Positions 11,546 through 22,700 of a stretch of 64,000 nt of DNA are shown in pieces. Positions within the stretch are counted from its first letter, which is position 1. Every line of letters begins with the position of its first letter. The notes beneath the pieces are model-generated. The model saw nothing but the letters and a program-made list of their open reading frames with translations, had not been told where the DNA came from and made no database searches. The position numbers and the translations under genes were made by a program. Source of the DNA: a virus; the IMG/VR virus record IMGVR_UViG_3300031707_000003, positions 1 through 64,000 of that record; one strand, given 5' to 3'.

Positions 11546-11917
11546 ATGAGCACTGAATCGACACAGAAGAAGCTGACGCGTGAAGACCCGGTCGAGCCGG
11601 AGATCCTGGGCAGGCTCGGCGAGCTGGAGCAGGCTCGGAACCAAATCGGTGCAGAATTGCTCGACATCGAGCAAGCAAAGGTCCGATGCCTCGCGGCTGC
11701 GCACAAGGTTGACGAGCAGCGTCATCGCCTCTTCGAGAAGGTCCTCATGGATCGCGGTCTTCCTCCGAACTCGGTCGCCGAGGTCGATGCGCAGTCCGGC
11801 AGGCTCATCATTCATCGCGAAGGTGGTCCGCCCGGCTTCCCGGTTCAGCCGAACGGGACGGCTCAGGCAGCCCCGCAACCCCCGGCAGCAGCTCCGGCGG
11901 CAGCTCCGACATCGTAG
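11546..11917 (+). CDS. Coiled-coil protein with Ala/Pro tail, 123 aa
   Basis: Two in-frame ATGs occur; the second (11546) has GGAGG 6 nt upstream, whereas the first (11540) would directly abut it, so 11546 is chosen. Residues 15-70 are a heptad-rich helix (EILGRLGELEQARNQIGAEL, then DIEQAKVRCLAAAHKVDEQR). A short strand (GRLIIHREGG) follows, then a tail of Pro/Ala (QAAPQPPAAAPAAAPTS). The architecture resembles small phage scaffolding or tail-adaptor proteins; the function is not identified. Confidence 0.65.
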   Translation: MSTESTQKKLTREDPVEPEILGRLGELEQARNQIGAELLDIEQAKVRCLAAAHKVDEQRHRLFEKVLMDRGLPPNSVAEVDAQSGRLIIHREGGPPGFPVQPNGTAQAAPQPPAAAPAAAPTS

Positions 11918-11923
11918 CCTGAA

Positions 11924-11954
11924 CTTCCCCTTATCCCTTTGCTGAAGGGGGAAG
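11924..11954 (+). promoter_or_regulatory. SD-sequestering hairpin before the gene at 11962
   Basis: CTTCCCCTT (11924-11932) can pair with AAGGGGGAAG (11945-11954), nine base pairs with one bulged G and a 12-nt loop. The 3' arm is the ribosome-binding site of the ATG at 11962. Folding would block initiation until melted or translated through. Confidence 0.5.
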
Positions 11955-11961
11955 CAGCTCG

Positions 11962-13323
11962 ATGCCCTACGCCACGAACCGAGATCGTACCGTCTCTGAG
12001 CTGGAGATCACAAGGGCCCCTTGGCCCTTGCCTCCGCTCAACGTGTTTCTGACGAGCGGGTTTGAGCCGGGCGTCTTCGACATCACGTGGGATGACCCGG
12101 CCATTCTCGGACCGAATGGCCGCTTCTGCGTTCTCGGCGTCAACATCTATCGCTCGTTCGACTCAGAGTTCGGCCCGTTCGAGCGGATCACGGAGCTGCT
12201 CTTGGGCTCCACGTTCTGGCGTGATCGCACCGACAACGAGCTGATCGTTGATGAGGATGTGACGACCCAGTTCGTCCTCAAGGGTGAATCCGGGGCGGCG
12301 GCCGGACAGGACACTCCTCGGTGGGTCTTCAAGACGCAACATTTTCCCATCGTCAAGGAGGGGTCCCAAGCGGTGAACGCAGATACCCCGGACGATGTGC
12401 GGGTTTACATCGACGGCGTTGAAGTCAAAGTTCTACGGGTCTACGGCTTCACAGGTGAGGTCGAGATCGATCCGTTCATCTACGCCAACATCGCGACCCA
12501 GAAGCTCGACCCTTCCCTAGTTCCGGGGCCTGATAGCCAGGTCACGTGTACGTATCGTCGCAACCGCTCGCTCCTCAAGACGGACCTCGTACAGCGTGTG
12601 TTCTATCGCTTGACGACGGTGGGCGTCCCCAAGGATGCCGACCTCTCCGTCGTCCAGTGCCAGGACTTTGTTGAGACCCCCCTCGAACGAGCGACCGCAT
12701 GCCATTCGTATGAAGTCGAAAAACTCGACTTCATGTGGCGGGAGGCGGTCCGTCGCAACCGTTGGATCTTGGAACAAGGTGGGGAACGGGTGCGCCTGTT
12801 CCTGAAGAAGCACGTGGGTCTTCCCTGCCCGTGCGTTCCGGACGATTATCACAAGCAGAGCATCAACGATTGCACCATCTGCTTCGGGACAAGCATCATC
12901 GGTGGCTACGAGGGCCCCTACGAAGCCATTGTGGCCCCTGACGATGCCGAGAAGCGGATCACCCAGAAGGACATCGGGCGGACGGTCGAGCACACGTACG
13001 AGGTCTGGACGGGCCCTGCGCCCATCCTTTCCCACCGGGACTTCCTCGTGAAGCTGAATGGGGACCGCTATTCGGTTGGCGCGGTCAGGTTCCCAAGTAA
13101 CCGGGGTATGGTGCTCCAGCAGCACTTCAACATCGGTCACATCGACGAGAAGGATATCCGGTACAAGGTCCCTGTCACGAACCCCACGAAGTTCGCGGCT
13201 GACCAGTTCGGCCCGCTAGGTCCCGAGCAGGAGGCTGAGGCGAACCCCACGGACAAGCCCAACATCCCTGAGGAACGCCAGCTCAGGGGCCGCTCGAAGG
13301 TCTGGGAGAACATCGAGTACTAA
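11962..13323 (+). CDS. Virion neck-type protein with zinc knuckle, 453 aa
   Basis: The N-terminal third is a fibronectin-like beta domain (FDITWDDP, then CVLGVNIYRSFDSEFGPFER, then FWRDRTD), followed by a phage structural beta module (DDVRVYIDGVEVKVLRVYG, EVEID, QVTCTYRR). The C-terminal half carries a helix (LDFMWREAVRRNRWILEQGG) and a zinc knuckle of Cys289, Cys291, Cys304 and Cys307 with CFGTSIIGGYEGP, then a small beta domain (HRDFLVKLNGDRYSVGAV). A Cys-knuckle plus GGYEGP loop recurs in phage neck and head-completion proteins. Likely part of the head-tail connector. Its SD is in a hairpin. Confidence 0.65.
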   Translation: MPYATNRDRTVSELEITRAPWPLPPLNVFLTSGFEPGVFDITWDDPAILGPNGRFCVLGVNIYRSFDSEFGPFERITELLLGSTFWRDRTDNELIVDEDVTTQFVLKGESGAAAGQDTPRWVFKTQHFPIVKEGSQAVNADTPDDVRVYIDGVEVKVLRVYGFTGEVEIDPFIYANIATQKLDPSLVPGPDSQVTCTYRRNRSLLKTDLVQRVFYRLTTVGVPKDADLSVVQCQDFVETPLERATACHSYEVEKLDFMWREAVRRNRWILEQGGERVRLFLKKHVGLPCPCVPDDYHKQSINDCTICFGTSIIGGYEGPYEAIVAPDDAEKRITQKDIGRTVEHTYEVWTGPAPILSHRDFLVKLNGDRYSVGAVRFPSNRGMVLQQHFNIGHIDEKDIRYKVPVTNPTKFAADQFGPLGPEQEAEANPTDKPNIPEERQLRGRSKVWENIEY

Positions 13324-13324
13324 A

Positions 13325-13834
13325 ATGCCCGCTATGATCGCCACTTCAATTTACTTGAAGCCTCTCATTCCGACAGCTCTCGCGGGGATGAGCTTCGATC
13401 GTGTCCTCCGTAGGCTACAGCGTGACCTTCTCAAGCGCCTCAAGGCCAAGCTTCAGCAGACGGTGTTCTCGGATCGGGCCAAGAAGGCTCTCGCGAGGTC
13501 GATGCGGATCGAAGTGCATCCTTCTAGCCTTCGTGTGACTACGAACCACCCGGCCTTTTTCCCTCTCGTCGACGGGCAGGCCAAGGGGCAGATGACGTGG
13601 CTCACGAAGGCCAAACGACCCATCCCCATCATCACGGATACGGGGAAGCTCATTTTCCGCAATGCTACCGCCAAGTCCATGGCGAACGGCTCGTGGATCC
13701 ACCCAGGACGTAAGCCCTCGGACTTCGTTTCTAAGGCGAAGTCTGAAGCGCGTAAGTTCTTGAAGGGCAAGCTCGTGGCCGAAGTCCGTAAGCAGATCCG
13801 CGCCGGACTTCAAAGCGCCGCGAGGGCCCGGTGA
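13325..13834 (+). CDS. Tail-completion/neck-like protein (HK97 gp10-like?), 169 aa
   Basis: The protein is small and basic. Residues 25-60 are a helix (FDRVLRRLQRDLLKRLKAKL). A beta segment follows (IEVHPSSLRVTTNHPAFFPL), then FRNATAKSMANGSWIHPGRK with a His-Pro-Gly turn, and a C-terminal helix (VSKAKSEARKFLKGKLVAEV). Helix, beta-sheet with W.HPG., then a long helix is the layout of many phage tail-completion and neck proteins such as those of the HK97 gp10 type. I infer that relation from architecture only. It starts 1 nt after the previous stop and its end overlaps the next gene by 4 nt (GTGA). Confidence 0.6.
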   Translation: MPAMIATSIYLKPLIPTALAGMSFDRVLRRLQRDLLKRLKAKLQQTVFSDRAKKALARSMRIEVHPSSLRVTTNHPAFFPLVDGQAKGQMTWLTKAKRPIPIITDTGKLIFRNATAKSMANGSWIHPGRKPSDFVSKAKSEARKFLKGKLVAEVRKQIRAGLQSAARAR

Positions 13835-14406
13835 GCGGAGACGTGAGGGTTCTCGGGCTCGTGGCCGGTACGCATGTCCTGGAAGACATCGGGATGGACG
13901 TGCCGTACGGGGTGACAGTTTCGATCTCTGCTGAGAAGGCGGCCCGGTCGAAGGATCTCCACCGGGCCATCAGCCAACGGTGCATCTTTGCGCTCCCTAG
14001 CCACCCCTCAGGTCCGGCGGTTTTCCAGCAAAACCAGCCTCAACAGGTCGGGGACGGCGTTCTGTTGGAGCGGATCCGAGCGCTGGAGGAAGAGAAGCGC
14101 CTGCTTCAGATGGCAATCCTCCAGTCGAATGAGGCTCAACAGCAGAAGTTCGACGCGATCCTCGCGGCTATCCAGGCTCAGGCGACGGTTCAACGGGTTG
14201 TCCACGTCAATGGCAACGGCGGCAACGTGACGCCTTCTCGCCATGAGGTGGCAGACGGGGAAGCCCCCACGTTCATCCCTTCGGAAATCCACCCGAAAGA
14301 CGCCGAATCCCGCATCGAGTCACAGAAGGACTCGGCCGGTGCCTCAGGTGTTTCGGACGCTGCGGAACGGCTGCGTAAAATGCGTCAGGGCAGCGGCTCC
14401 CAATAA
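13831..14406 (+). CDS. Virion-associated coiled-coil protein, 191 aa
   Basis: A GTG start overlaps the previous stop (GTGA). The N-terminal 55 residues form a compact domain (VRVLGLVAGTHVLEDIGMDV, then PYGVTVSISAEKAARSKDLH, RAISQRCIFAL) reminiscent of small domains at the start of phage neck or capsid-stabilising proteins. Residues 80-125 are a heptad-rich coiled coil (LLERIRALEEEKRLLQMAIL, QSNEAQQQKFDAILAAIQ). The tail is hydrophilic. A trimeric or dimeric virion adaptor is plausible. No homologue can be named with certainty. Confidence 0.6.
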   Translation: MSGDVRVLGLVAGTHVLEDIGMDVPYGVTVSISAEKAARSKDLHRAISQRCIFALPSHPSGPAVFQQNQPQQVGDGVLLERIRALEEEKRLLQMAILQSNEAQQQKFDAILAAIQAQATVQRVVHVNGNGGNVTPSRHEVADGEAPTFIPSEIHPKDAESRIESQKDSAGASGVSDAAERLRKMRQGSGSQ

Positions 14407-14449
14407 AGTTCTTGCGTGGCGCTCGTGTGAGAGAAGGAGAACGTCGAAC

Positions 14450-14746
14450 ATGCACCCCCGCCAAATCGAACTCTTGGGAGCAGCTCAGAGTCTCACCGAG
14501 AAGACCGCTGCGAAGAAGCAAACCGAGGAGAAGAAGCGGTCAGGTCCCGTGCTTCTGTGGAAATACACGGATCCCGACGGCAACAACTTCTACCTCGAAG
14601 CCAAGAAGACGACAGTGAAGTCACCCTTCAGCGGAAAGTCCTTCACTGCACGTCCCGAGCGACACACGCCCGCTCAGGTCGGCAAGGAAATGAAGGACGA
14701 GCAGAAAACGAAGACGGCAACCGAGCACGATCCCTGGAAGGCGTGA
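14450..14746 (+). CDS. Small Lys-rich protein, 98 aa
   Basis: ATG at 14450 is preceded by GAGAAGGAGAA, a good SD; the frame is open further upstream but that part overlaps the 191-aa gene in another frame. The product starts MHPRQIELLGAAQSLTEK, has a lysine/glutamate-rich helix (KKQTEEKKRSG), a short beta segment (VLLWKYTDPDGNNFYLEAKK) containing Trp-Lys-Tyr-Thr-Asp-Pro-Asp-Gly, and a basic, disordered tail. The WKY.DPDGN.FYLE segment looks like a small beta-hairpin binding motif, but no family was recognised. Confidence 0.6.
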   Translation: MHPRQIELLGAAQSLTEKTAAKKQTEEKKRSGPVLLWKYTDPDGNNFYLEAKKTTVKSPFSGKSFTARPERHTPAQVGKEMKDEQKTKTATEHDPWKA

Positions 14747-14753
14747 GTCCCCC

Positions 14754-15506
14754 ATGCCCAACGAGCGCAAATCGGAGGAGCTACAGCCCCTTCCAGTGAA
14801 GGACCCGTACTCGGGGCTCCACTCCGAATCAGTCTACGCCATGTGGCATGATCCCATGACGTACGACCACATGAAGATGGGTCCCCCGTACTTGCCCGAA
14901 CTTAAGGTTCGTATGGCGAGCACGGACCGGGATTCCGTTCGTGCGCTCGTCAAGCGAGAGGCGCAAACCTCGCCCGTTGATCAGATTCTCTCTCATCTGA
15001 TCGGGGAGTACCAAGGGCTCCCGATGGCCGAGCTGGGGGCCCTCCTCGCGTGCCTTCGGGCAGCGGCGATGGTCCACCAGACGCACCACTGGCAAACACG
15101 TGGGCTCACGTTTTACGGCGACCACCTCCTCTACATGCGGCTCTACGAGGAGTCGTCTTCGTTCGTCGATCAAGTCGCGGAGCGTGCCGTGGGCGCAGGC
15201 AGCCACCTTCTCGTTCACCCCGTCATCCAGACGGCGCAGATCCAGGCTCTCGTGAAGCACTTCTGCGGGGACATCCTCACGGATCCCAGCCCCGACGCTT
15301 ACGCCCTCGTGAGTCTCACGTGCGAGGCACGCCTCCTCACGGCACTCAACGGCGTGTACGGGATGTTGGAACAGAAGGGTCAGCTCTCGAACGGCACGGA
15401 CAACCTCCTTCAAGGGGTGGCCGACAAGCACGAGGAGTTCGTCTACCTGCTCAAGCAGCGCTGTCTCACGAAGGTCAGCTACGATCGCCGTTCATCGGCC
15501 AAATGA
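14754..15506 (+). CDS. Dps/ferritin-like protein
   Basis: Residues 75-240 match the Dps four-helix bundle. His112-Trp113, His124, Asp139 and Glu143 fall at exactly the +0, +12, +27 and +31 spacing of the E. coli Dps ferroxidase residues His51, His63, Asp78 and Glu82, and AERAV follows as in Dps. The Asp67 equivalent is Met128, so metal binding may be altered. Residues 1-70 are an extra N-terminal extension, and an insertion (about 155-180) lies between helices 2 and 3. Dps proteins oxidise and store iron and can coat DNA. Here the gene lies among neck genes and overlaps the next possible start (ATGA). A structural role for a ferritin-like bundle cannot be excluded. Confidence 0.75.
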   Translation: MPNERKSEELQPLPVKDPYSGLHSESVYAMWHDPMTYDHMKMGPPYLPELKVRMASTDRDSVRALVKREAQTSPVDQILSHLIGEYQGLPMAELGALLACLRAAAMVHQTHHWQTRGLTFYGDHLLYMRLYEESSSFVDQVAERAVGAGSHLLVHPVIQTAQIQALVKHFCGDILTDPSPDAYALVSLTCEARLLTALNGVYGMLEQKGQLSNGTDNLLQGVADKHEEFVYLLKQRCLTKVSYDRRSSAK

Positions 15507-15525
15507 AACCCAAATCAGATGTGGA

Positions 15526-15542
15526 GGGTCCCGTTGGGACCC
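15526..15542 (+). promoter_or_regulatory. Perfect hairpin before the actin-like gene
   Basis: GGGTCCC-GTT-GGGACCC: a 7-bp GC-rich stem with a 3-nt loop in the 56-bp gap after the Dps-like gene. The SD (GAGAGG, 15551-15556) is 8 nt downstream and free. No T-run, so probably a processing, stability or attenuation element rather than a strong terminator. Confidence 0.5.
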
Positions 15543-15562
15543 AAGATGAAGAGAGGATGAAA

Positions 15563-16585
15563 ATGGCCAAGTCAGATCGTGCTGCGTACAAGTCGGGGGT
15601 GGGTCTCGACATCGGGACTATGAATATTGTTTCGGCTCGCCAGATCGGCGACAAGATCGAAACGAACCGCATCCGGGATGCGTTTCTCGACCTCGACTCA
15701 GATGCCAAGAAGACGCTCCGTCTCTCGAAGGTGGACTACATCGAGAAGGACGGGAACCTGATTGTCATCGGGGACTCGGCCCTCAACATGGCGAACCTCT
15801 TCAAGCGAGAGGTGCGTCGGCCACTCTCACGAGGCGTGATCTCGGCGGGTGAAATCGACGCCCAGCAGATCCTCAGCTTGCTCGTCAAGCACGTTCTAGG
15901 GGACCCTGGCACCCCAGGTGAGCACTGCTTCTACAGCGTGCCGGCAGCTCCCATCGACGACGAGAACCAGGACATCATCTACCACACCGAGGTCTTCCGC
16001 AAGATCCTCACCGAACACAACTACGCGGCCCACCCTCAAAACGAGGCGATGGCGATCATCTACAGCCAGTGCGCTAAGGAGAACTTCTCCGGGCTCGCCG
16101 TGAGCTTTGGCTCCGGTATGTGCAACATCGCTCTCGCCTATCAGACGGTGAAGGGGATGGACTTCTCGGTGGCTCGTGGTGGTGATTGGATTGACTCCCA
16201 TGCGGCGAAGGCCACGGGGTCCACGGCATCTCGCATGTGCTCCCTCAAGGAGAAGGGTGTCGACCTCGCGAACACGGCGGGAGATCGCGATGCAGAAGCC
16301 ATCGCGCTCTACATCCGGGCTCTCATCAAGTACTGTCTGGAGAACATCGCCATTCAGTTCCGCAAGGTGCAGAGCACGCTCAACCTACCGGAGCCCATCC
16401 CCTTCGTTGTCTCCGGCGGCACGAGTCGCGCAGGCGGCTTCATGGCGGTCTTCGAGGAAGAGTTCGAGGCCGTGAAGAAGAAGGGGTTCCCGATTCAGAT
16501 CAGTGAAGTCCGAGCGGCCAAGGATCCCATGACCGCCGTAGCGGAGGGTCTCCTCGTGCTTGCAATGGAGGAGCACGCGGACTGA
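15563..16585 (+). CDS. Actin-like ATPase (ParM/MreB-type)
   Basis: The start at 15563 is chosen because GAGAGG lies 6 nt upstream and the preceding gap carries a hairpin; in-frame ATGs at 15503 and 15557 are alternatives. The 340-aa protein has the actin-fold nucleotide motifs in order: phosphate-1 GLDIGTMNIVSA (residues 14-25), connect-1 NEAMAIIY (160-167), phosphate-2 SFGSGMCNIA (181-190), GGDWID (206-211) and adenosine motif SGGTSRAGGF (284-293). A long helical stretch (DAEAIALYIRALIKYCLENI) lies between. ParM/MreB relatives polymerise with ATP to move DNA or organise the cell. Its place between neck genes is unusual, since phage actins are usually encoded with replication or partition genes. 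Confidence 0.85.
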   Translation: MAKSDRAAYKSGVGLDIGTMNIVSARQIGDKIETNRIRDAFLDLDSDAKKTLRLSKVDYIEKDGNLIVIGDSALNMANLFKREVRRPLSRGVISAGEIDAQQILSLLVKHVLGDPGTPGEHCFYSVPAAPIDDENQDIIYHTEVFRKILTEHNYAAHPQNEAMAIIYSQCAKENFSGLAVSFGSGMCNIALAYQTVKGMDFSVARGGDWIDSHAAKATGSTASRMCSLKEKGVDLANTAGDRDAEAIALYIRALIKYCLENIAIQFRKVQSTLNLPEPIPFVVSGGTSRAGGFMAVFEEEFEAVKKKGFPIQISEVRAAKDPMTAVAEGLLVLAMEEHAD

Positions 16586-16588
16586 AGC

Positions 16589-17785
16589 ATGTACTTCTAC
16601 CTCGCGCAAGCGCTCAAGCGGCGTCTAATTCTGGAGCTGAAGGATAGCTTCTCGAAGCACCCCATCTACGAGAAGATCGTCCCGTTCATCCAGAACAAGT
16701 ACGCCTTTACCGAGCGACCCCAATTCGGGATTGTCGTGAAGGGTTCGAGCGCCAACAAGGTGAGCTTGGCCGCCGACAACTTCCTAGGGACCATTGAAAG
16801 TCACGTCATGCTCGCCTTCGTGGGGGAGGCGGCCTACCCCATCGAATGGATCCGAGAAGACCTCGCTGCTGTTCAAGCGAACAACGACAAGATGCCGATC
16901 CCGTCAGGCATCTACTACCTCGAAGTCCTATCGGTTCCCACAACCGCTCAGGGTCAGGGGATGTTTGCGATCGATCCCCTCATCGAAGTCACGGACGAAG
17001 CCGTGCTTGTCTTCGCGACGGGCATCGAGCAGGAGGCTCAACTTCAACAGCGCCCGACGAAGGGGACTCTCCGACTTTGGGAGAACCGCCGGTTTCTGCT
17101 CACCGAGGGCACGCATTTCACGGTTGATTACCTCACCGGCGCCATCGAGCTACTTCAACGGTTCAGCCCCAACTCGATCCTCACGGCGGACTACTTCTAC
17201 CCGGCAGATTCGATCGGGCCGGTCCCCTTCGTCTGGAACACGGCGGACTTCAAGACTCTCCCCGGCATCGTGATGGCTTTCGGGAAGCGGGCACGGGTAG
17301 GGGACAAGATCGCCATCCGAGTCTACCCGGATAGGGTTGAGGCGGCGAACGCTATCGGTGGTCGCTTCGACTTGAGCTTCGAGTTCGACGTCATCGCCCA
17401 AGACTCGATCCAGATGGAAGAGATTGCCGATCTCATCATCATGTACTTGTGGGGTCAAAAGCGCCCGGTCCTTTCGAGCGAAGGTATCGAACTCACCGAC
17501 ATCTCGATGGGTGGTGAGTCCGAGGAGACCTACGACGAGACGGCGGACACCTACTACTACAATGCCTCGATGACGGCGCAGCTCCAGGCGGACTGGGAAA
17601 TTCACATCCCGCTGCCCCTGACGATCAGCCGAGTGGTCGCGAACACGAAGCAACAGGACCTCACGACGACCCCCACGTCTTTGGACACGGGTACGACCAT
17701 CATTGGGGACGTCAAGAGCAAGCTCTTTTTCGCTACGAATCCTGTTCTTGCAGGCCGTAACAGTGCCTTCGAACGAATCAGATAA
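16589..17785 (+). CDS. Virion protein, candidate tail/neck terminator, 398 aa
   Basis: Starts 3 nt after the actin-like gene. The N-terminus is a long helix (LAQALKRRLILELKDSFSKH) followed by IYEKIVPFIQNKYAF and QFGIVVKGSSANKVSLAADN, a distinctive conserved-looking stretch. The middle contains beta segments (GTLRLWENRRFLLTEGTHFT, then VDYLTGAIELLQRF) of the kind used in other large virion proteins in this window. The C-terminal third has IYYLE-like strands, an acidic TYDETADTYYYNASMTAQLQ strand and a closing beta region. Encoded directly upstream of the zinc ribbon and sheath genes, a neck or tail-terminator function is likely; the sequence itself does not name it. Confidence 0.6.
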   Translation: MYFYLAQALKRRLILELKDSFSKHPIYEKIVPFIQNKYAFTERPQFGIVVKGSSANKVSLAADNFLGTIESHVMLAFVGEAAYPIEWIREDLAAVQANNDKMPIPSGIYYLEVLSVPTTAQGQGMFAIDPLIEVTDEAVLVFATGIEQEAQLQQRPTKGTLRLWENRRFLLTEGTHFTVDYLTGAIELLQRFSPNSILTADYFYPADSIGPVPFVWNTADFKTLPGIVMAFGKRARVGDKIAIRVYPDRVEAANAIGGRFDLSFEFDVIAQDSIQMEEIADLIIMYLWGQKRPVLSSEGIELTDISMGGESEETYDETADTYYYNASMTAQLQADWEIHIPLPLTISRVVANTKQQDLTTTPTSLDTGTTIIGDVKSKLFFATNPVLAGRNSAFERIR

Positions 17786-17799
17786 AATGAGGGATCCCA

Positions 17800-18249
17800 A
17801 TGCCGCTGTACGCTTTTGAGTGCCAAGAGTGCCTCGTCCGCTTCGAGAGGACCCTCAAAATGGGGGATCACACGACCCATCCGTGCCCGTCTTGTAAGGA
17901 CGATGCGCCTCGGATCCTCGACCAACAGGGGTTCGGGTTCGGGTTCGCGGCCTCTGCTAGTGCCGCTCCGGCCAACACTGGCGTCCACGCGGATGACTAT
18001 CCGACGGCCGACAGGGCGGTCGGGAAGAGTGCCGAGTCGCGGTGGGAAGTCATCTCCGATCGTGAAAAAGTGAAGGGCGAGGCTAGAAAACAGGGGGAAA
18101 CCCACGCTCTCATCCGTCACACCGGGCCCGGTTTCATCGATTATGAGCCGATGTCGGATGTGGGGCGGAATGCTCGTCGGAAGCTCGCAAAGGCCGCTGT
18201 TGACGCCGCTAAGGTGGCTCGACAGGGAGAAGTGAAGCCGCCTCGATAA
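17800..18249 (+). CDS. FmdB-type zinc ribbon protein
   Basis: The 149-aa product starts MPLYAFECQEC, with Cys8/Cys11 and Cys29/Cys32 (CPSC) forming the single zinc ribbon typical of the FmdB regulatory family (MP.Y.F.C..C, about 25 residues, then CP.C). A Gly/Phe stretch (GFGFGF) links it to a hydrophilic region with a strongly basic C-terminal helix (GRNARRKLAKAAVDAAKVAR). In phages such ribbons often accompany neck or sheath genes, with unknown function. The SD is GAGGGATCCC, partly within an 8-bp palindrome. The gene lies 155 bp before the sheath gene. Confidence 0.75.
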   Translation: MPLYAFECQECLVRFERTLKMGDHTTHPCPSCKDDAPRILDQQGFGFGFAASASAAPANTGVHADDYPTADRAVGKSAESRWEVISDREKVKGEARKQGETHALIRHTGPGFIDYEPMSDVGRNARRKLAKAAVDAAKVARQGEVKPPR

Positions 18250-18404
18250 TGTTTCGTTCGTAAGGGCAGGTAGACGCCCAGGCTCTACTTGGCGCCATTA
18301 AGATCAGAATCGAATCACACCGTACGGTTTTCCTCTACTCGGCATGCCGAGTCAGATCCGAACGCAGATCGAATCAAGTCTAATTTCCCTGAGGAGATCC
18401 GCCA
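18250..18404 (+). promoter_or_regulatory. Sheath gene leader with palindrome and direct repeats
   Basis: This is one of the two longest non-coding gaps. It contains a perfect 16-bp palindrome ACTCGGCATGCCGAGT (18337-18352), able to form a hairpin with a CATG loop, and a 10-bp palindrome ACCGTACGGT (18319-18328). The 9-mer ATCGAATCA is repeated at 18309-18317 and 18368-18376, flanking the larger palindrome. A weak TAAGAT at 18298-18303 is the best -10-like hexamer, without a good -35. The SD GAGGAGATCC (18391-18400) is accessible in this arrangement. A dedicated late promoter or operator for the highly expressed sheath gene is a reasonable inference. Confidence 0.5.
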
Positions 18405-21400
18405 ATGGCGTTGGGTCCGTTCATTACCTACGTACCGCCCGGTGTTTACACACGGACGCTCACTGAAACGAACGCCTCGAACCTCGTGGCAGGGCTTCGA
18501 ATCCCCGTTCTCATTGGCGTAGGCCAGGAAGAGCTGGAGCAGGACGACCTGGAGTTGGTCCGTGGCAGTAGTTCTACTGTCGACCAGCAGATCGTCAGCG
18601 AAGATGTGTCGTTGGAGTGGGTGGTCAACGCGACCAACCCCAACAACCTCATCCTCGGCGCTCAAGACGGGACCCTCACTCAGTTGAGGGTGCGGAACTA
18701 CCCGATCGTCGACGGTCAGGGGTTCGGCCGCGTCACCAACGACACGCGCACGGTCACCGTGACGGTCAACGGGACGCCGGTTGCTCTCGGCGGGGTGCAG
18801 GGCCAGAAGGGCCTTGTTACGCTCCAGGTGCCGACGCAGCCCACCGACGTCGTTCGGATCACCTACTTCTTCCATCGCGGCGACACCGCGTTCACGGATG
18901 ATGTCTCGTCTCAGGTGGAGTCGCTCAACGCGTTCCTCATCACGCCAGGCGTCGAACCGTTCAACATCACGTCGGGCACGAACGATCAGTTCATCCTCAC
19001 GGTGAACTCGATCTCGGCGACGATCACTCTGCCTCCGGGAGCGCTCACGGCAGCGGCCCTCAAGTCGGTCATCGACTCGGCCGCCGTCCCGAACCTCTCG
19101 ACGTCGGTTTTCACCGACAATGCTGGGTTGAACCACATCCAGTTCACGACCCCGATCTCGCTCCTCGTCGGTTCGGGTTCGGCGAATGGACCCCTCGGCT
19201 TTTCGACCGGGGCCCACACGACCCGTAACCAGGCTTTTCGTGTCTTCCAGCGTCCGATCGTGGACGGTACGAGCGGCGGTATCACGACGACGGACCCCAC
19301 GAAGGTCGTCGCCAAGGTCAACGGCACGCAAGTCGTCGTCCAGGCTGTCGATGGTGCCAACGGCATCGTGACCCTGCCCTTCGCCCCCGCACCAGGTTCG
19401 ACGGTCACCCTCCAGTACTTCGCGAACACCTGGCAGGACACGTTCGACTACCTGCCGAACAGTCTCGTCACGACGGTCCTTCGGGCGGGTATCTCCCCCG
19501 GCCGCAACGACTACATCCAGGGTCAGGACTTCATCGTCTCGAACCCGACGCCCGATGTCAGCCTCATCAACTGGGGCACGGGTTTCGTGGTCGCGGCCTC
19601 GTCTACCTCTCCGGGTGCGACCCCGTTCGATGGATCAACGGGCTCTGGTGGGCAGATCACGTCGACCCTCGTGGACGACCAGTTCTACTTGAGTGCCTGT
19701 GTGCGTGTCACGGACACGACGACCATCCCGGCGACGGTCTCGAACACGGACTTCCTCCTTCCCGAAGTGCCGACGACCGGCAACGGGCGGAACACTCCGC
19801 TTGGCCTGCCGCTCTACCAGTCGGTCACCAACTCGCGGCAGGACCTCATCACGAACCGCCCGGACCTCATCGTGGTCCGTGTCGGTCGCACGCTCCGTGA
19901 TGCCCTCGGTCGCCCCGCAGTGGCCGTCACTTCGGTGGATGGCGTCAACCGCCGTATCACCCTGAAGAACCCCGTCCCGCCGGATTGGAACGCCTACGCG
20001 ACGTTCTACTACAACCGGATCGTCGACGACACGTTCATCTTCACGTGCACGGTCCCTGGGGCCGTGGGTGCGGGTCAGTACACGGTCTTCTCGTCCGTCC
20101 GCAACACGAATCTCTTCGAGGTTCAGTTCGGTGTCAAGACGGGCTTTGCTCAGATCGTCCAGTGGCCTCGCGGCGTGGAGCAGATCCCCGACGCCTTCCA
20201 CACGGGCAACGGCACGCCGGTCAGCGAGATCGTCACGATCACGTTTGGCACCTCGGCAGCGACGAACGCGTCGTTCACGAACCGGGGCGCCGAACCCTAC
20301 TCGTTCTTCTCACCGTTCTCGACCTCGTGGGTCACGAACGTCAACGGCGTCAACCAGACGACACTCCTTTCGCTGGCAGCCCAGGGCTATCTCGTTGGTG
20401 GACACGTGGCGGTCATCCAGACCGGCCCTGACACCGGCAAGATCACCGTTCCAGCCTCTCCGAACAACCAGCTCAACATCGCGATCGATGGGGTCACGAT
20501 CGCTACGATCGCTCTCCCGGTGGGTAACCAATTCCCGACGGCGATCGTTGCGGCTATCAATGCCGGCATCGACGCCAACGCGACGTTCATCGGAACGGCT
20601 CCCAACAACCTCGCTCGGTTCGCTCAGATCGGCGGCGCTACCGGCGACGTCTTCTTCATCATCAAGTCCTACTCGACTCCGGCGGCACTCCCCGCAGGCT
20701 TCGATGCGGCTGCGACGGTGCGAATCAACCAGGGTACCGTCGAGAGCACTCTCGGGCTCCCCACATTCGCTCAGGTGGCGGGCACGCCCGGCGCGATCAA
20801 CAAGCCGGCGACCCTCCTCGGTGGGCTTGCAGGTCCGTTCAATATCACGTCGGGTCTGAACGACCAGCTCAACGTCCGCCTGAACGGGACGGACTACCAG
20901 GTCATTCTCCCGGCCGGTGCGGCGGTCACGGCAGCAGCCGTGGTGGTGGCCATCAACCTCGTCCCAGGCCTTGCCGGCGTCGCCTCGGTGGGTACCCTCG
21001 CGAACGTCAACAAGGTCCGTCTCACTTCGACCACCAACGATGGCGGCTCCTCGCTGCTCATCCTCTTGGGGTCGGCGAACGCGGTTCTTGGGTATGTCCA
21101 GAACCAGCTCGCGTCCCAAACCAAGGTCACGGCTCAAGAAGTCGTCGATGAACTCATGGCTACGGCCGGTTTCATCACGGGCGCGGTTGCCTACGTTGAT
21201 CCGCTCAACGGCAACAACTACATCACGTTCGAGTCCTTGACGACGGGCGCGGCCACGTCGAACATCGGCTTCTCGAACTCGGCGAACTCGGCGTTCAACC
21301 CGACGACAGGCATCGGCCTCGCGGTGGGTGTTGACGGCGACGTTGGTGAGGATCCGCAGAACAACTACACGGTCACGTCGACCTCGCCTCAGGGTTCGGC

Positions 21401-22700
21401 TGGTACGGGCATTCCCGGTCAGACGTACACGGATGCGAGGACGGGACTCCGGTTCTCGATTCTCCCGGCTTCGACGGGAAGCTACACGCCGACGGGCAAC
21501 TTCACGCTCCTGATCTCCCCGACGTTCCACGTGAACCCGAGCGTTCCGCGTTACTCGATCGGCGGTCTGGAGACCATCGTGTCCAACACGGTGGGTGTCG
21601 GGATCAACGATACCTCGACGCTTCAGACGTTCAACCCTGGTGGAGTGGAGCCGGCGAACGGCGACTTCTACTTCGTGTCGTACCGCTTCTTGAAGCAGGA
21701 CTTCTCGACGCGCATCTTCCAGCAGCTCAAGACGATCGAGGCGAACTTCGGCAAGACAGCCCCGGAAAACCGGGTCACTCTCGCAGCGTTCCTCGCGATC
21801 CTCAACGGCGCGGTGCTCGTCGGCATCAAGCAGGTCCTCAAGATTCCGAACACCAACCAGGCGTCGGATCAGAGCTTCAACGCGGCCATCGACGAACTGG
21901 CAACCCCGCTTCCTGGCAACGTGAAGCCGGACATCCTCGTCCCGCTCGCAACCAGCACGGCGGTCTACGCCCACCTCACGAACCACTGCGAAGTCCAGTC
22001 CAACATCCGCAATCAGTCGGAGCGGATTGGGTTCATTGGGTTCGCGTCGGGGACGTCGCCGACATCGGCGCAAACGGTGGCCAAGGGCCTCAACTCCAGC
22101 CGCATCGTCGCCTTCTACCCCGACAGCGCGGTGGTGACCCTCACGGACGAACTCGGTCAGTCCTTCGAGTCGCTCGTGGACGGCAGCTTCTTCGGAGCGG
22201 CCGTGGCGGGGGCAGTTGTGGCTCCTTCGGTGGACGTTGCGACGCCGTACACGCGCCGCCGCATCCAGGGCTTCACCCGCATTCCGAGGATCCTCGATCC
22301 GGTTGAGGCAAACCAGACGGCGGTGGCAGGCGTCACGCTCCTGGAGGACCTCGAACCCGTCGTCCGCATCCGTCAGGGGCTCACGACGAACATGTCGTCG
22401 ATCCTCACCCGTCTTCCGACGGTCATCCAGATCGCTGACTTCGTCCAACAGCAGAGCCGAGCCATCCTCGACTCGTTCGTTGGTACGAAGTTCCTGGCGG
22501 CTCGTACCAACGAGGTCGTCGTCTCGATGACGGGGCTCTTCAGGAGCCTCGTCCAAGCGGAAATCGTCTCGGCCTTCACCGGGATGAGCGCGGCCATCGA
22601 CCCCGATGATCCGACCATCCTCCGCTTCGAGGCGTTCTACTCGCCGGTCTTCCCGCTCCTCTACCTCGTCCTCACGTTCAACCTCCGCGCTCGCATCTGA
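18405..22700 (+). CDS. Giant contractile tail sheath protein, 1431 aa
   Basis: The N-terminus (PFITYVPPGVYTRTLTET, followed by RIPVLIGVG) and the last 330 residues (IRNQSERIGFIGFASGTS, RIVAFYPDSAV, then PYTRRRIQGFTRIPRILD, then FLAARTNEVVVSMTGL and a closing FEAFYSPVFPLLYLVLTFNL) have the layout of sheath proteins: an alpha/beta C-terminal core ending in an extended strand for subunit linking. Most sheaths are 350-700 aa, so the middle is a large insertion. There, three copies of an NITSG.ND-type module start near residues 186, 678 and 812, and three copies of a V.VNG..V..VDG..G.VTL beta unit lie near 115, 300 and 495. The sheath surrounds the tube and contracts. It has its own leader region with a palindrome. 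Confidence 0.9.
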   Translation: MALGPFITYVPPGVYTRTLTETNASNLVAGLRIPVLIGVGQEELEQDDLELVRGSSSTVDQQIVSEDVSLEWVVNATNPNNLILGAQDGTLTQLRVRNYPIVDGQGFGRVTNDTRTVTVTVNGTPVALGGVQGQKGLVTLQVPTQPTDVVRITYFFHRGDTAFTDDVSSQVESLNAFLITPGVEPFNITSGTNDQFILTVNSISATITLPPGALTAAALKSVIDSAAVPNLSTSVFTDNAGLNHIQFTTPISLLVGSGSANGPLGFSTGAHTTRNQAFRVFQRPIVDGTSGGITTTDPTKVVAKVNGTQVVVQAVDGANGIVTLPFAPAPGSTVTLQYFANTWQDTFDYLPNSLVTTVLRAGISPGRNDYIQGQDFIVSNPTPDVSLINWGTGFVVAASSTSPGATPFDGSTGSGGQITSTLVDDQFYLSACVRVTDTTTIPATVSNTDFLLPEVPTTGNGRNTPLGLPLYQSVTNSRQDLITNRPDLIVVRVGRTLRDALGRPAVAVTSVDGVNRRITLKNPVPPDWNAYATFYYNRIVDDTFIFTCTVPGAVGAGQYTVFSSVRNTNLFEVQFGVKTGFAQIVQWPRGVEQIPDAFHTGNGTPVSEIVTITFGTSAATNASFTNRGAEPYSFFSPFSTSWVTNVNGVNQTTLLSLAAQGYLVGGHVAVIQTGPDTGKITVPASPNNQLNIAIDGVTIATIALPVGNQFPTAIVAAINAGIDANATFIGTAPNNLARFAQIGGATGDVFFIIKSYSTPAALPAGFDAAATVRINQGTVESTLGLPTFAQVAGTPGAINKPATLLGGLAGPFNITSGLNDQLNVRLNGTDYQVILPAGAAVTAAAVVVAINLVPGLAGVASVGTLANVNKVRLTSTTNDGGSSLLILLGSANAVLGYVQNQLASQTKVTAQEVVDELMATAGFITGAVAYVDPLNGNNYITFESLTTGAATSNIGFSNSANSAFNPTTGIGLAVGVDGDVGEDPQNNYTVTSTSPQGSAGTGIPGQTYTDARTGLRFSILPASTGSYTPTGNFTLLISPTFHVNPSVPRYSIGGLETIVSNTVGVGINDTSTLQTFNPGGVEPANGDFYFVSYRFLKQDFSTRIFQQLKTIEANFGKTAPENRVTLAAFLAILNGAVLVGIKQVLKIPNTNQASDQSFNAAIDELATPLPGNVKPDILVPLATSTAVYAHLTNHCEVQSNIRNQSERIGFIGFASGTSPTSAQTVAKGLNSSRIVAFYPDSAVVTLTDELGQSFESLVDGSFFGAAVAGAVVAPSVDVATPYTRRRIQGFTRIPRILDPVEANQTAVAGVTLLEDLEPVVRIRQGLTTNMSSILTRLPTVIQIADFVQQQSRAILDSFVGTKFLAARTNEVVVSMTGLFRSLVQAEIVSAFTGMSAAIDPDDPTILRFEAFYSPVFPLLYLVLTFNLRARI

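Follow-up and report, generated by a model that had tools for sequence, protein, structure and literature searches.

The window analysed here comprises 64,000 nucleotides and is part of a 111,677-base virus record of IMG/VR. Within it, the gene at 15563–16585 is separated by 56 nt from the gene before it and by 3 nt from the following one, all on the plus strand, and stands between neck-cluster genes and a tail sheath gene. The features of this region are as follows.

11962–13323, plus strand: conserved neck-cluster protein of 453 residues (weak match to phrog_2806; synteny).
13325–13834, plus strand: small basic neck-cluster protein of 169 residues, with conserved order (synteny).
13831–14406, plus strand: putative volactin adaptor of 191 residues (AlphaFold2 model of family alignment A7).
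14272–14289, plus strand: first half of the tail signature, FIPSEI, residues 148–153 of the putative adaptor (alignment A7).
14350–14391, plus strand: C-terminal tail motif VSDAAERLRKMRQG, residues 174–187 of the putative adaptor, a candidate volactin-binding peptide.
14456–14746, plus strand: small protein of 96 residues, present only in the clade nearest the window (synteny).
14754–15506, plus strand: Dps/ferritin-like protein of 250 residues (phrog_3636, 6e-8; PF00210 below cut-off).
15563–16585, plus strand: phage volactin, an actin-like ATPase of 340 residues (PF25216, AlphaFold2, Foldseek, dN/dS).
16589–17785, plus strand: conserved gene directly after volactin, 398 residues, probable virion or tail protein.
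17800–18249, plus strand: zinc-ribbon protein of 149 residues (PF09723, 38.2 bits, cut-off 34.4).
18405–22700, plus strand: tail sheath of 1431 residues with a long N-terminal extension (phrog_2839; PF17482/PF04984).

The product of 15563–16585 carries the segments GLDIGTMN (residues 14–21), SFGSGMCN (181–188) and SGGTSRAGG (284–292) in this order. It matches the Pfam family Volactin (PF25216) with an E-value of 6e-76 and 256 bits against a gathering cut-off of 35, and the match spans positions 3–321 of the 321-position profile. Identity with haloarchaeal volactins is approximately 42%, and an alignment with haloarchaeal and bacterial volactins showed that all family-invariant residues (D16, G18, T19, E161, S181, G207-D208, D211 and G285-G286) are kept. 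Comparison with the counterpart from L003 gave dN 0.14 and dS 1.6, indicative of purifying selection, and the dN/dS of ~0.09 against relatives identifies this reading frame as a maintained gene. The original prediction of a real open reading frame with its motifs in order was thus confirmed. That the family already has a name, and that a candidate adaptor gene lies nearby, had not been anticipated.

The AlphaFold2 model of volactin, built on an alignment of 43 relatives, adopts the actin fold with high confidence (mean pLDDT 94.9, pTM 0.92). A Foldseek search of the PDB with this model ranked the MamK filament, MreB, Mbl and BeeR at the top, and in a sequence-profile search MamK scored best at 9e-10, followed by FtsA, BeeR and MreB. 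Placement in the Hsp70/FGGY-kinase branch, named beforehand as the outcome that would speak against an actin, is ruled out: the best matches are MamK, MreB, BeeR and FtsA, the protein consists of a single actin domain of 340 residues, and neither Hsp70 nor an FGGY kinase appeared within the Foldseek PDB top 50. No PHROG family covers volactin, and single-sequence searches of PHROG and the PDB gave nothing useful. Both the full-length PF25216 match and the fold uphold its assignment as an actin-like ATPase that belongs to a distinct family.

Alignment to MamK revealed that the phosphate-2 motif of volactin is non-canonical, with a serine (S181) in place of the usual aspartate. The expectation that every actin nucleotide motif would be present consequently holds for the occurrence and order of the three motifs and not for the canonical identity of phosphate-2. 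S181 is invariant among the aligned phage, haloarchaeal and bacterial volactins, and a pattern count over 190 distinct phage volactins found serine at this position in 169 and aspartate or glutamate in none; the remaining sequences, which fell outside the pattern, are cut short or divergent. Because serine replaces the phosphate-2 aspartate, hydrolysis by volactin may be slow or altered. The volactin of H. volcanii makes dynamic filaments, so this serine alone does not exclude polymerisation. One phage volactin (L518, contig G036, 338–2440, minus strand) carries an in-frame insert of ~360 residues within its GGDWID motif, starting at ..FSLAR-CLSDDFPVV and ending at ..VVHN-CGDWID, which looks like an intein.

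The position of volactin between neck and sheath genes is conserved, in agreement with the original prediction. Among distinct phage volactins with at least 7 kb of downstream DNA, 126 of 146 adjoin the 398-residue gene or the tail sheath, and the order 453-residue gene, 169-residue gene, adaptor, volactin, 398-residue gene, zinc ribbon and sheath is kept down to ~47–50% volactin identity. The 453-residue gene usually lies 1–3 kb upstream, with volactin downstream in 146 of its 153 distinct homologues, and volactin is found upstream of the 398-residue gene in 136/152. Homologues of the 398-residue protein show weak matches to virion structural and tail terminator PHROGs, and the search for a known family returned these weak virion matches only. 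The sheath was identified from the C-terminal 430 residues of the 18405–22700 product, which match phrog_2839 at 2.8e-25; the same PHROG was matched by all 16 aligned homologues, several of which also match PF17482/PF04984. PDB profile searches with the 398-residue, 453-residue and sheath proteins gave no convincing match, and the sheath assignment was settled by the PHROGs. The Dps/ferritin-like gene stands between the adaptor and volactin only in the clade nearest the window. Promoter and terminator scans yielded no signal above chance, and the stretch 11900–18450 contains scattered imperfect repeats only, with no centromere-like repeats or iteron array.

The idea that homologues always stand beside neck genes applies to most of them; divergent phage volactins in other contexts were found in L066, L074, L338, L341, L353 and L354. 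Conversely, records of 257, 288 and 536 kb contain parts of the neck cluster and volactin nowhere in the record, and some phages with the neck/sheath cluster carry neither volactin nor the tail motif described below. These exceptions in both directions indicate that volactin is common in the tail module and not required by it. One volactin outside the tail module (L341, 3536–5380) has an RNA polymerase beta-subunit gene nearby. A small gene upstream of two divergent volactins (L074, L338) ends in W.IP[DE]F...FGK, which resembles the adaptor tail in its first half only, and a GT9-like glycosyltransferase gene occurs near divergent volactins in L074, L338 and L353.

The candidate adaptor gene sits a few genes upstream of volactin. 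Its AlphaFold2 model comprises an N-terminal domain (residues 1–56) and a coiled coil (75–120), both confident, followed by a disordered linker of low confidence and a C-terminal helix (173–187). The tail contains two conserved elements, [FY][IVL]P, in which P150 is at least 90% conserved in alignment A7, and a helix with the consensus VDDAAKALKKLRKK; the window motif VSDAAERLRKMRQG has a PSSM score of 30.8. A disordered linker leading to a conserved C-terminal helix, in the product of a gene linked to the actin, is the arrangement of ParR and arcadin-2. A fold search of the PDB with the adaptor gave no significant match, and among viral models a single match below 1e-3 was obtained, to an uncharacterised phage protein. 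The N-terminal domain has weak fold similarity to small, functionally uncharacterised phage proteins, none with a proven virion location, and matched no DNA-binding family in Pfam.

Adaptor relatives are present in nearly all volactin neck/sheath loci. The family comprises 336 members; they were collected with a model limited to residues 1–75, so the tail could not drive membership. We set the threshold at the 99th percentile of 6000 unrelated gene ends and found the tail motif in 142 of the 148 distinct relatives that come from volactin-bearing loci, a figure that shows consistency, as the motif model was trained on those tails. Several of the six tails below threshold keep a shifted or divergent motif, and L062 appears to have lost it. 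The four relatives in phages that lack volactin (L360, L366, L389 and L422) retain the N-terminal domain, and none has the motif: their tails score at the 95th, 75th, 85th and 35th percentiles of unrelated genes, respectively. The association of motif with volactin gave a Fisher p of ~1e-5, with only four volactin-less relatives on that side of the comparison. The motif is present in three further adaptor loci that appear to lack volactin (L458, L493 and L504). The L458 record carries volactin elsewhere, and in L493 and L504 volactin may be missing from the assembly because the contig ends no more than ~2–3 kb from the adaptor. A single-sequence scan for additional volactin-less adaptors returned the known locus only.

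Relatives of volactin occur in ~400–500 viral stretches, many of them on contigs of 200–530 kb, and two unannotated phage records of 485 kb and 595 kb encode one. Of 26 large phage records with volactin, one has two copies. Two volactins lie ~160 kb apart on a 297-kb phage contig (G021; L198 and L292). Tubulin (PF00091) was not detected in any of the 26 volactin-bearing records by a search that recovered the positive control, phiKZ PhuZ, at 2.6e-8. Cellular relatives were found in haloarchaea, Omnitrophota, Chloroflexota, Desulfobacterota, Acidobacteriota, Patescibacteria and others. The maximum-likelihood tree strongly supports the window clade (30 rows, 100/98) and the monophyly of haloarchaeal volactins (100/99), and places phage volactins at several scattered positions. 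Such scatter makes transfer between phages and cells likely, in either direction, the tree being unrooted with long branches. In Omnitrophota (L079, 7983–10455; L081; L078), two volactins occur in tandem, preceded by a ParA-like gene and followed by a gene with the tail motif; the second volactin has an N-terminal extension (PF25216, 8e-79).

We then applied the phage-trained tail-motif model, unchanged and with a score threshold of 12, to bacterial and archaeal volactin loci. Scores above 12 were obtained for 46 of 213 genes adjoining volactin and for 4 of 772 other genes of these loci (p 4e-28, a value that overstates independence because the cellular loci are mostly haloarchaeal); two of the 46 (L075, L076) lie on phage contigs binned with bacterial genomes. 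The motif stands beside volactin in Chloroflexota, Desulfobacterota, Omnitrophota, a Thermoplasmatales MAG and haloarchaea, with weaker matches in Acidobacteriota and Patescibacteria. When one locus per lineage was considered, the adjacent gene ranked top in Chloroflexota, Desulfobacterota, Patescibacteria, Omnitrophota and the Thermoplasmatales MAG; in this test the Acidobacteriota contig stops within the carrier gene, and the simple gene picker overlooked the Haloferax locus, whose carrier scores 23. The N-terminal parts of cellular carriers differ between lineages. The haloarchaeal carrier is a DUF7139 multi-pass membrane protein (PF23600, E 4e-36) with three or four hydrophobic segments, and 36 of 56 loci have two motif copies in it. 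In Chloroflexota (L083, 9109–11230) and Patescibacteria (L097, 2932–4933), the gas-vesicle genes GvpL/F and GvpG adjoin volactin. A winged-helix anchor suspected by eye in the Anaerolineae carrier of L083 was not supported by any Pfam or PDB sequence match.

Based on this, we propose that volactin and the tail-motif protein act as filament and adaptor, the latter attached to the virion neck, so that particles are moved, positioned or tethered, a reading to which we give an even chance. Since the gene is embedded among neck and tail genes, volactin would be expressed and polymerise late in infection. The product of 13831–14406 would serve as its adaptor: the N-terminal domain may dock on the neck or tail under assembly, the coiled coil may oligomerise the protein, and the flexible C-terminal tail, with its FIP element and amphipathic helix, is predicted to bind a groove of volactin. 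The filament would then move, position or tether procapsids, tails or virions in a large host cell, a job equivalent to that of the PhuZ tubulin in phiKZ-type phages. Reading the pair as filament and hook follows two precedents, arcadin-2 for a globular domain, linker and C-terminal helix encoded beside an actin, and AlpA-AlpC for a phage actin with a co-transcribed adaptor, and the motif shared by volactin neighbours in archaea and bacteria makes such a system probable. The place of the phage hook gene among neck and tail genes makes assembling particles the most likely cargo, by analogy with capsids on PhuZ. For haloarchaea, the membrane would take the part of the hook, consistent with filaments that are held there by their tips (PMC10869688). 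Counting in favour of this reading are also the lack of tubulin in the 26 records and of centromere-like repeats near the gene; weighing against it are the phosphate-2 serine, the weak fold matches of the adaptor N-terminal domain, and the phages whose neck/sheath cluster comes with neither volactin nor tail motif. Extended to all lineages, volactins of viruses, archaea and bacteria may form one modular transport and anchoring system, in which the shared tail peptide recruits the filament, swappable N-terminal anchors (the virion neck for jumbo phages, the DUF7139 membrane for haloarchaea, gas-vesicle machinery for several bacteria) set the cargo, and volactin replaces PhuZ in these phages; we consider this broader scheme plausible, with somewhat less than an even chance.

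Three other explanations of the pair deserve consideration. The layout also resembles ParR or AlpA with their actins, and the variable N-terminal parts of cellular carriers leave room for DNA as the anchor in some lineages; the adaptor might accordingly bind phage DNA and volactin move genomes instead of virions, as in DNA positioning or segregation of the ParM/AlpC type. We regard this as unlikely given that 11900–18450 contains no iteron array, that the phage N-terminal domain matches no DNA-binding family in Pfam, and that these genes belong to a structural neck/sheath cluster whereas alpAC is induced early (PMC4446434). Volactin could instead work without filaments, as an ATP-driven assembly factor or minor virion part in the joining of neck and tail, with the adaptor as scaffold. 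That most phages keep it at the same place, between neck genes and sheath, would suit such a role, and the phosphate-2 serine may mean nucleotide switching more than hydrolysis. However, volactins that lie outside any tail module in cells belong to the same family and have tail-motif partners too, the H. volcanii protein forms filaments (PMC10869688), and some phages build the same tail without volactin; we regard this explanation as about as unlikely as DNA positioning.

The tail-motif protein might also regulate volactin by sequestering or depolymerising it, in the manner of arcadin-2 on crenactin, and not serve as a cargo hook. The layout is that of arcadin-2, a protein whose last 17 residues depolymerise filaments (PMC5173319). 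The variation of N-terminal parts, from membrane-embedded DUF7139 to the phage neck-cluster domain, fits anchoring better than sequestering, and two motif copies in many haloarchaeal carriers also argue against regulation, which we judge the least probable of the three.

The volactin family and its haloarchaeal founder were already known. Within the open, published literature searched, several sequence-based observations appear to be new: the wide presence of volactin in jumbo-phage neck/sheath clusters; the putative adaptor, its tail motif and the loss of this motif in phages lacking volactin; and the link of volactin to DUF7139, which that literature does not mention, and to gas-vesicle clusters. 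The cytoskeletons known in jumbo phages are tubulins, and the jumbo-phage reviews searched describe no phage actin. If our reading is correct, volactin would represent a widespread actin-based cytoskeleton of jumbo phages.

The proposed pair can be compared with several characterised systems. MamK and MreB are the nearest solved structures by profile and fold; they differ from volactin in having the canonical phosphate-2 aspartate and other partners, at ~16–21% identity. ParM-ParR and AlpC-AlpA likewise combine an actin with a neighbouring adaptor, and AlpAC is also phage-borne, its actin and adaptor being co-transcribed and early-induced (PMC4446434). Those actins belong to another family, whereas the volactin cluster is structural, not early replicative, and has no centromere repeats in 11900–18450. 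In the crenactin system, the C-terminal peptide of arcadin-2 fills the groove between subdomains IA and IIA, the site that ParR uses on ParM (PMC5173319). Arcadin-2 resembles the putative adaptor as an actin neighbour with a conserved C-terminal helix after an unstructured linker; the actin family and motif are different, and arcadin-2 depolymerises filaments. PhuZ of phiKZ-type phages, on whose spindle capsids travel, is also a phage-encoded cytoskeleton of jumbo phages, but with the tubulin fold instead of the actin fold, and no PhuZ-type tubulin was detected in the 26 volactin-bearing records. The closest counterpart is the founder of the family, HVO_2015 of Haloferax volcanii, the only volactin shown to form dynamic filaments, with tips bound to the membrane (PMC10869688). 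The phage gene differs in lying in a neck/sheath cluster, and the phage adaptor has a predicted soluble domain and coiled coil where the haloarchaeal carrier has membrane helices. Both proteins match the same Pfam family over its full length, share the invariant motifs including S181, and have a neighbour with the tail motif.
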